Source of the DNA: Chloroflexota bacterium
GTDB lineage: Bacteria; Chloroflexota; Dehalococcoidia; JACPQK01
Direction: 5' to 3'
Length of the DNA: 7,921 nt
NCBI GenBank assembly: GCA_016190535.1
Contig: JACPQK010000114.1
Location: 1 to 7,921, forward strand
In this document: positions 1-2,608 of the stretch, in pieces
Layout of the letters: each line of letters begins with the position of its first letter
Position numbering within the stretch: the stretch's first letter is position 1
Notes under the pieces: generated by a model
Told to the model about the DNA's origin: nothing
Databases searched by the model: none
Seen by the model: only the letters and a program-made list of their open reading frames with translations
Made by a program: the position numbers and the translations under genes

Positions 1-167
1 GTCTCCAGCCGGGCACCGTTGTCCACATCCACCACCTGTACCATCTCGTAGGGGAGGATGTCAGCAGCTTCCATCAGCCCGGCGTCGATACTGATGCTGC
101 CCTCGTAGTGCAGGTCGGCCCTGGTTACCCTGGCCCTGTGGATTTTGGACTTGAGCATCGTGCGCAT
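1..167 (-). CDS. panD: Aspartate 1-decarboxylase precursor, N-terminal part (cut by window edge)
   Basis: Pyruvoyl enzyme that decarboxylates L-aspartate to beta-alanine for pantothenate and CoA synthesis. The 55 visible residues begin [20 protein letters not shown] and continue YEGSISID. The family self-cleaves at Gly-Ser in this segment (Gly23-Ser24 here), and the Ser becomes the pyruvoyl group. The Lys of KIHR (K8) matches the conserved active-site Lys. I chose ATG 167 because it gives the family's usual N-terminus and has GAGGTG just upstream. An in-frame ATG at 182 would add five residues. It follows the 141-residue ORF by 20 bases and is probably cotranscribed with it. The C-terminal half lies outside the window. 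Confidence 0.93.
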
Positions 168-187: not shown

Positions 188-613
188 TCAGTTGGCCTCC
201 AGGCCAATACGCTGGCAAAGGGCCTCCAGCAGGCCCGTGATCTTTGCCGCTACCTTGGGGTCTTTCAAGCCTTCACCGAAGTGGTCCTCCAGTAATCCGT
301 AGATGCCCTGGGCTGGAGAGGAGGGGGGCCTTTTCCTGTAGGACTTCAGAGCTTCCCTGACCTCTTGAAGGACGTTGAGGAGGGCCTCCAGCCCTTCCGG
401 TACCAGGCGAAGCTCACCCCCGTCAGATTTGACTTTCATTCTCTCCAGTTGGGCATCAAGCTCAACCATGCCCTGGTCCTCCACCGCTATCAGGGCCAGG
501 CCCCGGGCCAGGGCGCTGGACCAGGCCCGGTGCACGGCCAGCGCCCTGGAGAGCATCTGGGTCTCCCCCTGGGTGCATGTCATGAAGTAGTAGCCCTCGC
601 TGGACCAGAACAT
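188..613 (-). CDS. Hypothetical protein in the panD operon (141 aa)
   Basis: I do not recognise the family. The protein is soluble-looking and mostly helical: no signal peptide, no convincing membrane segment, a charged middle (residues about 50-95) rich in Glu, Leu and Arg, and a Pro/Ser hinge (RPPSSPAQG, about 94-102) before a short C-terminal helical part. A real gene is supported by its tight packing: its ATG lies 2 bases after the stop of the DUF2520 gene, a GGAGG motif sits in the end of that gene, and its own stop is just before panD. Codon third positions are GC-rich like the neighbours. Position suggests a role tied to pantothenate/beta-alanine metabolism, but nothing in the protein itself shows this. 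Confidence 0.75.
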
Positions 614-615
614 AG

Positions 616-1503
616 CTACTCCGCCTCCAGCAGGGCGCTTATCTGCTGTGCGCCCCCGGAGTCCAGCCTGCCCTTGGCCAGGGCAATGGGGATGGTCTGC
701 TTGCCCAACTCCCGGTAGGCGAGCAGGAGGCTGGGGGCGCGCTCTGCCAGCGCGTGAAGGTGTTTCTGGATGGTGCCCAGGTCCCCCCGGGCGATGGGTC
801 CCGTCAGGCAGCCGGGCAGGCCCACCTTGTCCAGGTTGTTGACGGTCCCCTGAATAAGGGGAAGCAAGGCCCTCAGCGCCTCCTGCTGAGGGATGCCGAA
901 GGTGTCCCAGAGGTCGGTAGCCAGCTTGGCCAGGGTTACCAGATAGTTGCAGGCGATGACAGCGGCAGCGTGGTAGAGCACCTTGTCACCGGCGCCCAGC
1001 ACCAGGGGAGTGCCGCCCAGGGAGCGGGCCATGCCCTTCAGGACCTCCATCAGTCCGGGCGAGCTGGCCTCCAGGGCAAAGGTGGAGCCGGGCAGATTGT
1101 GGATAGCCTGCTCCCCACTGGCAAAGGACTGAAGGGGGTGAAAGGTGCCTGTCTCCGCCCCTTGACGGCGTGCGGGTTCCAGCACATCCAGGGAGTCGGC
1201 CCCGCTGCAATGGACTGCCGCCTGGTGGGGGTGCCAGTCCACCTGCTGGGCTACGGAGCCGATGGCCGCGTCTGGGATAGTGATGAAGACCAGGTCGGCC
1301 ATGCGGGCCGCCTCCTGGGGAGAGGAGCAGGCCCGGCTCCCGGTCAGTCGGGCTGCCAGGGCCTGCGCGGAAGCGGTGGAGCGGCTGGACACCGCCACCA
1401 CCCGGTAGCCCCGCTGGGCCAGGGATACCGCCAAGCCCGTGCCTACGGTGCCTGCGCCGATGAAGGCAATGGTTGGCGATCCTGCTCTGGCAGCCCTGGT
1501 CAT
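616..1503 (-). CDS. Rossmann-fold DUF2520 oxidoreductase, candidate ketopantoate reductase
   Basis: A 295-residue NAD(P)-binding protein. The N-terminal Rossmann motif GAGTVGTGL (about residues 16-24) starts a domain of the NADP oxidoreductase/F420-type fold, followed by HCSGADSLD and FHPLQSF and an all-helical DUF2520 C-terminal half with GPIARGD. DUF2520 proteins often sit beside panB, panC and panD, and proteins of this kind (PanG type) have been proposed as non-PanE ketopantoate reductases. That role is inference from context here. The start is ATG 1503, which overlaps the stop of the upstream peptidase gene as ATGA and has GGAGGGAG 5' of it. The upstream ATG at 1521 lacks such support. 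Coupled translation with the peptidase is likely. Confidence 0.88.
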   Translation of the reverse strand: MTRAARAGSPTIAFIGAGTVGTGLAVSLAQRGYRVVAVSSRSTASAQALAARLTGSRACSSPQEAARMADLVFITIPDAAIGSVAQQVDWHPHQAAVHCSGADSLDVLEPARRQGAETGTFHPLQSFASGEQAIHNLPGSTFALEASSPGLMEVLKGMARSLGGTPLVLGAGDKVLYHAAAVIACNYLVTLAKLATDLWDTFGIPQQEALRALLPLIQGTVNNLDKVGLPGCLTGPIARGDLGTIQKHLHALAERAPSLLLAYRELGKQTIPIALAKGRLDSGGAQQISALLEAE

Positions 1504-2462
1504 ACTGCTCCCTCCAGCCATTCCCTGGCGGATGGTATGCCACAGAGGCCGGTGGCCGTACCGATTCCTCTCACTACCGCCTGGGCCACCAGGCGCGAGG
1601 CCAGGGCTCCCAGGGCCATCATGTCCGCTGGTCCTCGCCTCAGGCCCAGGGCGAGGCAGAATATTGCGTCGCCATCGAGCAGGGTGTAGGCCGGGCGTAT
1701 GGCCTGGGCCAGCCCTGCCCCGGCCATGCGGGCCAGGCGATGGGCCTGCTCCCTGGAGAGCGTGGCGTCGGTAGCGATGACCCCCAGGGTAGTGCTGGTG
1801 CCGGGTGGGGGTAGGGCTGTCCTCCCCTCCTGGAGCAGGGTTAGGGTGTCGGCGAAGCCACCGGGGGGCAGGCGAGGCCCCGCCAGACGCCGCCCGCTAT
1901 CGGGGTCCACCACGTCGCCGAAGGCATTGACCACAGCCAGGGCCGCTACCCGAGTGCCATCCCCCAGGGAGGAAGGGGCACAGCCCAGGCCACCCTTGGT
2001 GGCCCAGGGAGGGCCCAGGGCCTTGCCCACGGTAGCCCCCGTGCCGGCACCCACACTGCCCTCTGCCACCGGGCCCTCAGTGGCCGCCAGGCAGGCCCGG
2101 TAGCCCTCCTCAGGGCCGGGGCGGACCATAGGGTCCCCCAGGCGAAGGTCGAAGATGATGGCTGCCGGAACGATGGGCACCCGGACCGTCCCCATGTCGA
2201 AGCCGCAGCCTTTCTCCTCCAGATAGCGCATCACGCCCGAGGCGGCCTCCAGCCCAAAGGCGCTACCCCCGCTCAAGACGATGGCATGAACCTGGCTCAC
2301 CAGGGAGGCTGGTCGCAGCAGGTCCGTCTCCCGGGTTCCCGGTGCTCCTCCGGGGATGTAAACACTGGCCACAGCTCCCTCCGGGCACAGCACCACCGTG
2401 CAGCCCGTGGCTGCCAAGGGGTCGGTATAGTGTCCAACCTTCAGACCCGGTAGGCCCAGCAT
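1500..2462 (-). CDS. P1-family peptidase (DmpA/BapA/NylC superfamily, MEROPS S58-like)
   Basis: A 320-residue Ntn-fold-like aminopeptidase/amidase precursor. Recognisable blocks are LPGLKVGHYTD at the N-terminus, VLSGGSAFGLEAASGV (about 62-77), GSVGAGTGATVGK (about 135-147), GDVVDPDSG (about 182-190) and TSTTLGVIATDATLS (about 222-236). In this superfamily the chain cleaves itself just before the nucleophile. By alignment the nucleophile here would be Thr224 (S223|T224), where NylC has Asn|Thr. Members hydrolyse N-terminal D-, L- or beta-amino acid peptides, nylon oligomers or amides; the substrate cannot be read from this sequence. ATG 2462 gives the usual family N-terminus. The frame stays open to 2708, but that extension is the untranslated leader. 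It is the first gene of the operon leading to panD. Confidence 0.93.
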   Translation of the reverse strand: MLGLPGLKVGHYTDPLAATGCTVVLCPEGAVASVYIPGGAPGTRETDLLRPASLVSQVHAIVLSGGSAFGLEAASGVMRYLEEKGCGFDMGTVRVPIVPAAIIFDLRLGDPMVRPGPEEGYRACLAATEGPVAEGSVGAGTGATVGKALGPPWATKGGLGCAPSSLGDGTRVAALAVVNAFGDVVDPDSGRRLAGPRLPPGGFADTLTLLQEGRTALPPPGTSTTLGVIATDATLSREQAHRLARMAGAGLAQAIRPAYTLLDGDAIFCLALGLRRGPADMMALGALASRLVAQAVVRGIGTATGLCGIPSAREWLEGAV

Positions 2463-2471
2463 GGCCCCCAA

Positions 2472-2499
2472 CAAAAAACCCCCCGGCAACGCCGAGGGG
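2472..2499 (-). terminator. Intrinsic terminator in the operon leader (attenuator)
   Basis: Read on the minus strand, CCCCTCGGC and GCCGGGGGG pair as a 9-bp stem (one G-U) closed by the 3-nt loop GTT and followed at once by six T and then G. It ends only 9 bases before the peptidase ATG at 2462, so it lies inside the operon's own 5' leader. That position argues for conditional termination. The U-run follows only on the minus strand, which fixes the orientation. Confidence 0.72.
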
Positions 2500-2580
2500 C
2501 ACAACTCCGCACCCTTTCCGTCTCGGTCGTTACCGATCCAAGCGGTAGCAAAGCTACTTTCTTTGCTGCCCCTAGGAAAG
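2495..2580 (-). promoter_or_regulatory. Candidate structured leader RNA / riboswitch upstream of the peptidase-panD operon
   Basis: Read 5' to 3' on the minus strand, hand folding gives these elements. P1 is CTTTCC (2580-2575) with GGAAAG (2519-2514). P2 is GGCAGCAAAG with CTTTGCTACC (2570-2561 with 2553-2544, one mismatch). P3 is TCGGT-AACG-ACCGA (2536-2523). After the junction, AGGGTGC (2515-2509) can pair with GCCCCT (2500-2495), one bulge, taking the 5' arm of the terminator. P1 and this antiterminator share bases, and the antiterminator and terminator exclude each other: riboswitch-like logic. I cannot match it to a known class. The 'pan' RNA motif found upstream of panB/C/D genes is a possibility I cannot verify. 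No convincing promoter was found upstream. Confidence 0.45.
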
Positions 2581-2592
2581 CATAAGTGGCAG

Positions 2593-2608
2593 CCCCCTGT
2601 CAAGGGGC
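2593..2608. repeat. Short palindromic repeat CCCCC-TGTCA-AGGGGC (copy 1)
   Basis: The 16-mer CCCCCTGTCAAGGGGC matches 15 of 16 bases at 7501-7516. CCCCT and AGGGG form the arms around a 4-base centre. It sits just outside the predicted leader RNA, in the divergent spacer. Both copies are intergenic, so this looks like a dispersed REP-like unit. Confidence 0.45.

Follow-up and report, generated by a model that had tools for sequence, protein, structure and literature searches.

Introduction

What kind of regulatory element precedes the peptidase-panD operon of a Chloroflexota-like bacterium, and how might it act on that operon? The DNA analysed here (the window) is a stretch of 7,921 nucleotides, contig JACPQK010000114.1, and contains a region that controls vitamin B5 (pantothenate) genes standing in a cluster; positions are those of the window, and the features collected in Table 1 lie on its minus strand. 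The leader in front of the first gene (2580-2463) had been described in a sequence-only reading as a candidate new riboswitch without a known class, with a three-way junction closed by a stem P1. The present analysis identifies it as a genuine regulatory leader with a single hairpin at its core, which belongs to the pan motif (Rfam RF01749), a class set out in a passage of a 2010 paper (PMC2864571), and thus not as a new RNA class. The general frame of the earlier description holds: a pantothenate-linked regulatory leader with an intrinsic terminator before the peptidase-panD operon, probably an attenuator. With some confidence, we favour the reading that the leader of the S58 peptidase-DUF2520-panD operon is a transcription attenuator built on a single pan hairpin, with the operon off when this hairpin stands.

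Identity of the leader core

No match was found in the whole window at the Rfam gathering scores. In a permissive scan, an Rfam check that the sequence-only reading had proposed with pan among the named models, the top match was RF01749 (2591-2514, 30.4 bits, E 0.0017 and 0.0011 in two scans), which is below the gathering cut-off of 36.2 bits; many relatives with intact tandem hairpins also score below this cut-off. In the RF01749 alignment, the second (3') pan hairpin fits almost letter by letter and the first fits badly. The matching hairpin (2545-2518) reads CCG-CUUGG-A-UCG-GUAA-CGA-CCGAG-A-CGG, and its bulged A2537 and A2521 are the two bulged A given in the passage of Weinberg et al. 2010 (PMC2864571). 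A covariance model (R1), built from 59 other hairpins with the window excluded, scored the window hairpin at 47.2 bits (E 1.1e-15), and the next-best site of the window at 9.5 bits. Among 16 further loci that contributed no model rows (L119 and L206 being the same place, and L150 and L198 duplicating the letters of another locus), those of the relatives' class, 12 in number, reached 40.0-47.2 bits. In the second-group loci L209, L212, L222 and L231 (see below), R1 matched only L212, at 20.4 bits. The stem P3 of the earlier description (UCGGU-AACG-ACCGA) is present as letters; as a separate stem it dissolves into a register shift of the tip of this hairpin.

Other identities were considered and rejected. 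The remaining weak Rfam matches (anti-hemB at 18 bits, int-alpA at 13.8 and others) are far below their cut-offs. No T-box was matched at the gathering score in the window, nor at E up to 5 in 2350-2700, in agreement with the sequence-only reading. The leader might also be taken as coding sequence, as the peptidase frame is open upstream (ORF 1500-2708); this was rejected because most of the listed relatives match from residues 1-6, and because the pan hairpin and the terminator are kept as RNA features. A comparison of the leader with a plasmid collection gave no match.

Pan leaders in relatives

The pan motif was found in 9 of 16 genomes with peptidase relatives (E 1; 2 above the cut-off), and in 168 of the 393 genomes of the class of one such relative (E 0.1; 76 above the cut-off). 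A pattern with at most two substitutions, applied to 208 loci and the window, gave 129 distinct places; the leader set consists of the 114 that were kept (at most one substitution, L080 dropped), and mixes loci found through pan with loci found through the peptidase. The first gene behind pan in these 114 leaders is DUF2520 in 56, S58 in 47, panD in 6 and another gene in 5. For 83 of the 88 best-scoring pan-search loci (five were left out as duplicates or unmatched), the corresponding counts are 56, 21, 2 and 4, the last being panB in three cases and DUF2520 in one. The S58 peptidase is therefore a regular pan-associated gene in these relatives. Their pan hairpin and intrinsic terminator stand before pantothenate genes, often in the S58 peptidase-DUF2520-panD order of the window.

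Some leaders are arranged differently. In L169 and L198 (before DUF2520-type genes) and in L166, L179 and L191 (before panB), an ATG follows pan at a distance of no more than about 10 nt, without a true terminator, an arrangement that looks like translation-start control rather than attenuation. L028, L041 and L057 carry a pan variant with CTGGGATC in the 5' strand; their terminators are unmatched to the pan strand, and they perhaps use another expression platform.

The two pan hairpins differ in how much they vary. In 70 distinct 3' hairpins, the 11 pairs are formed in 97.0% of cells, a figure that, like the invariant A, is partly by construction because the search patterns demanded conserved letters in the 3' hairpin and, in the 5' hairpin, the bulged A together with no fewer than 8 of the 9 pairs. 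Two-sided changes occur there in 3 pairs and 12 cells; one slid version of the control also gave 12 two-sided cells, and the stem scarcely varies. For the 5' hairpin (84 of 88 aligned, leaving out L119, L128, L179 and L202), two-sided changes reach all 9 pairs and occupy 66 cells, versus 9.5 after shuffling and at most 14 after sliding. Since the window is without a 5' hairpin, this covariation supports the pan class and not the window itself.

Promoter and single-hairpin architecture

A perfect second pan-like hairpin lies upstream in 90 of the 114 leaders. Among the 24 without a perfect one, inspection by eye found a near-perfect or masked 5' hairpin in 16, and no recognisable one in eight (L005, L018, L119, L128, L136, L166, L191 and the window); the pattern search likewise found no second hairpin upstream in the window. 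L119 and L018 are thus also single-hairpin leaders. The tandem was not taken as a defining criterion of pan because the 2010 passage says 'most' (PMC2864571). In 83 of the 90 tandem leaders, a TTGACN (one substitution allowed, 20-40 nt range searched) precedes the 5' hairpin by 28-40 nt, 56 of them at 29-31 nt, so the RNA probably begins at the foot of the first hairpin. The distance from TTGACA to the pan hairpin is 52 nt in the window, 58 in L119 and 36 in L018, with a median of 83 in the 106 of 114 leaders that have TTGACN. A distance of 52 nt leaves little room for a tandem; the window RNA would therefore start near 2567, with the 5' strand of P1 at the -10 position.

This placement bears directly on the three-way junction. 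Its segments exist as letters (P1, 2580-2575/2519-2514, 6 bp; P2, 2570-2561/2553-2544, one mismatch), and if the RNA began at 2580, the segment 2580-2509 would have its lowest energy (-26.7 kcal/mol) when folded into the junction with P1. The 5' strand of P1, however, lies 17 nt behind an exact TTGACA (2603-2598), and is probably untranscribed because it is positioned where the -10 element should be. In L119, which is the closest relative found and has the same four genes with a 70% identical peptidase, conservation extends to TTGACA, to every one of the 28 bases of 2545-2518 and to the core of the terminator, but not to P1, P2 or the AGGGTGC/GCCCCT antiterminator of the sequence-only reading. 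Part of P2 survives in the window, as its inner 7 bp (2567-2561/2553-2547) are in the predicted fold. Together with the pan match, these results make a new three-way-junction riboswitch working through P1 and AGGGTGC/GCCCCT very improbable. As a separate observation, the 5' hairpin that relaxed search settings brought up in L119 is a chance one, positioned upstream of its promoter.

Complementarity between the pan hairpin and the terminator

The intrinsic terminator reads GCCCCTCGGC-GTT-GCCGGGGGGT and then six T; it had been proposed before and was recovered by the terminator scanner, and its last T (2473) is separated from the ATG (2462) by ten bases rather than nine. Across the leaders, the pan 3' strand CCGAGACGG is almost invariant, and the 5' arm of the terminator often carries its partner CC-U-UCUCGG. 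A script located a terminator at most 110 nt behind pan in 109 of the 114 leaders (not in L169, L179, L186, L191 and L198); those of L150 and L166 look false and were later removed, which leaves 107. At a threshold of -8 kcal/mol or lower, the pan 3' strand pairs with its own terminator 5' arm in 80 of the 109 leaders, and with 370 of 2180 shuffled arms. Only 12 of the 82 other terminators of these loci reach the same threshold, in a comparison that is not quite even, as stems of 8 pairs were demanded of these and stems of 6 pairs of the leader terminators. After dereplication, the short-arm pairing is found in 31 of 46 leaders versus 18%, and in 21 of 46 it ranks in the top 5% when compared with shuffles of the same leader.

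In the window, the pairing could extend through the apical loop (2535-2522/2496-2484, -23.4 kcal/mol). Such an extended pairing is testable by swapping terminators because the pan loop varies between leaders. With 43 leaders dereplicated below 50% linker identity, own terminators gave a mean of -17.9 kcal/mol versus -15.8 for swapped ones (z -6.0, 0/5000 permutations), and larger sets gave z of -7.4 (69 leaders) and -8.6 (107 leaders); these permutation figures are optimistic and the z values possibly inflated because the leaders are related. The controls were flat: z +0.15 with the pan loop reversed, -0.4 to -1.2 in five shuffles, and -0.25 with the terminator reversed. The comparison thus supports a predicted species-specific complementarity of the pan loop and 3' strand to the terminator 5' arm and loop. 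When pan was blocked in folding predictions of pre-terminator transcripts, all 14 chosen leaders showed its 3' strand paired to the terminator arm.

The AGGGTGC/GCCCCT antiterminator of the sequence-only reading exists as a pairing. It does not overlap the pan hairpin, and both are in the pre-terminator minimum; no link between the conserved element and the terminator would therefore come from it. The relatives support a competition of pan, antiterminator and terminator instead of the earlier logic of P1, antiterminator and terminator.

A second group of 32 leaders was also collected, 22 of them with a terminator; 30 come from the class to which a Clostridium genome belongs, and the other two from a Clostridia bin and a Desulfobacteraceae bin. 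In L212-L240, from the class of the Clostridium genome, some pan ends and the bases next to them complement the terminator arm in another register (examples are L222, L231 and L224), and single cases such as L222 look convincing.

Folding energies and alternatives

The leader 2567-2463 folds better than each of 200 dinucleotide shuffles (z -3.55, 0/200 as good). From 2580, the minimum is the extended antiterminator at -50.2 kcal/mol; from 2567, it consists of the plain hairpin, the pan hairpin and the terminator, at -47.3 kcal/mol without ligand. Which fold is favoured thus depends on where the RNA begins. As long as the 3' arm of the terminator is still to be made, the values for the window leader are -30.5 and -27.7 kcal/mol.

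Several of the results weigh against attenuation by the pan hairpin. In the leader from 2567, enforcing the candidate antiterminator gave -39.8 kcal/mol and enforcing the AGGGTGC/GCCCCT pairing -38.8 kcal/mol, both above the minimum of -47.3 kcal/mol; in a shorter construct with an incomplete terminator, pan was still favoured by 4.7 kcal/mol. Pan and terminator together are favoured by energy in 11 of the 14 chosen leaders (naked RNA), and the free full-length minimum is without the pan hairpin only in L136, L109 and L010. With a complete terminator, blocking pan does not save the antiterminator pairing in 8 of 14. The median rank of a leader's own terminator among 42 is 0.24, with single leaders often unremarkable; the short-arm pairing alone is not significant in the window (p 0.23) or in L119 (p 0.34), and in L028, L041 and L057 the matched-versus-swapped test found no such pairing. 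The second group gave z -4.8 (0/3000) for matched versus swapped terminators; the test was not counted as support because the reversed control was not flat (z -2.9) and relatedness was kept in. Finally, a promoter scanner found no promoter in the window leader.

These energies would suit a pan hairpin that regulates through a recruited protein, with a basal, non-competing terminator and an arm likeness due to descent or other constraint. Protein binding was suggested in the passage of Weinberg et al. (PMC2864571), and L028, L041 and L057 have a terminator without complementarity. A basal terminator would not account for a complementarity that is lost on reversing or shuffling the pan loop, nor for the rarity of a match between the pan strand and the other terminators of the loci; it is regarded as unlikely. 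The opposite polarity, in which the naked RNA terminates by default and the operon is turned on by a shortage signal or a protein, through opening of pan or stabilisation of the antiterminator, is given slightly less weight still. It would agree with the ligand-free ground state of the window, which is pan plus terminator, and hence off. What is conserved, however, is the pan hairpin and its bulged A. The conserved parts of a sensor are usually those of its bound state, and operons for the synthesis of vitamins are generally repressed by their product.

The preferred reading remains an attenuator that is off when pan stands. A standing pan hairpin, held by a putative ligand (metabolite or protein), would leave the terminator 5' arm free; the terminator would then fold and the operon would be off. 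If pan were open during transcription, its loop and 3' strand might engage the 5' arm of the terminator in an antiterminator and so leave the operon on. The result would be feedback repression by a signal of sufficient pantothenate or coenzyme A (CoA). Because the complete terminator dominates, the antiterminator would have to act during transcription, and the polarity given here is tentative. On the level of sequence comparison, the pan hairpin, the terminator, their order before pantothenate genes and the species-specific complementarity are shown; the putative ligand, the polarity and the start of the RNA are what we infer.

A wider proposal is put forward tentatively, at somewhat less than even weight. 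Pan might be a true attenuator in which one hairpin serves both as sensor and as antiterminator, with an apical loop that varies and a 3' strand that does not, both co-evolving with the terminator loop and 5' arm in one bacterial class and perhaps in Clostridia. Its regulon would include an S58 amidase that releases beta-alanine or pantothenate (e.g. from pantetheine-like amides), an unrecognised step of CoA supply.

The operon and its surroundings

Table 1. Features of the leader and operon, in the order of the minus strand.
Feature	Position	Strand	Basis
-35 element TTGACA	2598..2603	-	sequence; kept in L119
Probable weak -10 element TTTCCT with upstream TGC, overlapping the P1 5' strand	2574..2579	-	18-nt spacing; L119 and other relatives
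Plain hairpin of 7 bp (AGCAAAG/CUUUGCU) where a 5' pan hairpin usually stands	2547..2567	-	minimum-energy fold
Pan-motif (3') hairpin, bulged A2537 and A2521	2518..2545	-	RF01749 match; own model R1
Candidate antiterminator strand 1: pan apical loop and 3' strand	2522..2535	-	13 pairs with 2496-2484, A2527 bulged
Candidate antiterminator strand 2: part of terminator 5' arm, loop, start of 3' arm	2484..2496	-	pairs with 2535-2522
Intrinsic terminator, six-T tail	2473..2500	-	terminator scan: stem 2500-2478, 10 pairs, 8 G-C; core kept in L119
S58/P1-family peptidase gene, operon gene 1	1500..2462	-	Pfam Peptidase_S58, 145.1 bits; relatives
Rossmann-like/DUF2520 protein, possible ketopantoate reductase	616..1521	-	Pfam DUF2520, 123.3 bits
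141-aa protein	188..613	-	also between DUF2520 and panD in L119
panD, aspartate 1-decarboxylase, truncated at window end	3..167	-	Pfam Asp_decarbox, 83.3 bits

The panD gene is the fourth behind the leader, in the same order as in L119, and the pan hairpin thus stands upstream of a pantothenate synthesis operon. The panD fragment scored 71.3 bits with TIGR00223, below the whole-protein cut-off, as expected of a fragment. The closest peptidase relatives (best 120 of 8000 scored) are 71% and 70% identical, the latter from a Chloroflexi bacterium. The nearest solved structure is the nylon-66 hydrolase 9cxr (E 3.9e-69), followed by the L-aminopeptidase/D-esterase 9yys (E 5.6e-52) and ThnT 3tm1 (E 6.1e-47); the beta-peptidyl aminopeptidase 3n2w is a weak relative (E 8.2e-6). 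According to a passage on ThnT, the pantetheinyl group on the carbapenem core is degraded to cysteamine (PMC6097109). An S58 amidase freeing beta-alanine or pantothenate would fit a pan regulon. The DUF2520 protein scored 20.2 bits with Pfam ApbA, below the cut-off of 22.2; from its context, such proteins may be ketopantoate reducers, a matter that the papers found leave unsettled. Pfam and NCBIfam scans of the 141-aa protein gave no match.

Two repeat structures were also observed. Upstream of the leader, nested inverted repeats at 2673-2792 (arms 2673-2689/2776-2792, 88%; 2701-2712/2735-2746, 100%) resemble a small mobile or REP-type element. A perfect G+C-rich 16-bp inverted repeat with a 2-nt gap lies at 2881-2914, between two divergent gene groups.

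Comparison with known systems

The 2010 passage on the pan motif describes it from three phyla, mostly in tandem, before panB, panC or aspartate decarboxylase operons, and as suggestive of protein binding (PMC2864571). The relevant passages of three transcriptome papers place pan among elements of the 5' untranslated region, and two of them name a panB operon. A pan ligand or mechanism was not found in the open-access literature, subscription papers being mostly outside that search. In a term search, neither 'pan motif' nor 'pantothenate' was found in the review PMC7266159, and neither 'pan motif' nor 'riboswitch' in PMC11487621 on CoA synthesis in Bacillus subtilis. As a cis-regulatory RNA of pantothenate operons, pan has been an orphan since 2010. 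A concrete expression platform with named competing bases would open the search for a ligand or protein by a simple termination assay, and a single-hairpin pan would be a small natural test piece. Through the link between S58 and pan, a family that otherwise carries the label of P1 peptidase or nylon hydrolase acquires a role that can be tested.

T-box leaders combine a terminator with an antiterminator. The window leader also has a terminator and a possible antiterminator, but no Rfam T-box match. The trp-leader attenuators use mutually exclusive 1:2 + 3:4 versus 2:3 pairings; similarly, pan plus terminator in the window would be off and the antiterminator on. In contrast to the trp leaders, the sensor in the window would be the pan hairpin, and no leader peptide turned up, although none was searched for. 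The leader is like RF01749 in its hairpin with two bulged A, its near-identical letters and its place before a panD operon in a Chloroflexota-like genome. It is unlike the usual RF01749 in having one hairpin instead of a tandem and a score below the Rfam cut-off, and unlike the operons named in the 2010 passage (panB, panC, aspartate decarboxylase; PMC2864571) in that its first gene is an S58 peptidase. What is added to these systems is, as judged from the sequences, a single-hairpin member of pan, the S58 peptidase as a probable part of the pan regulon, and a candidate antiterminator open to test.
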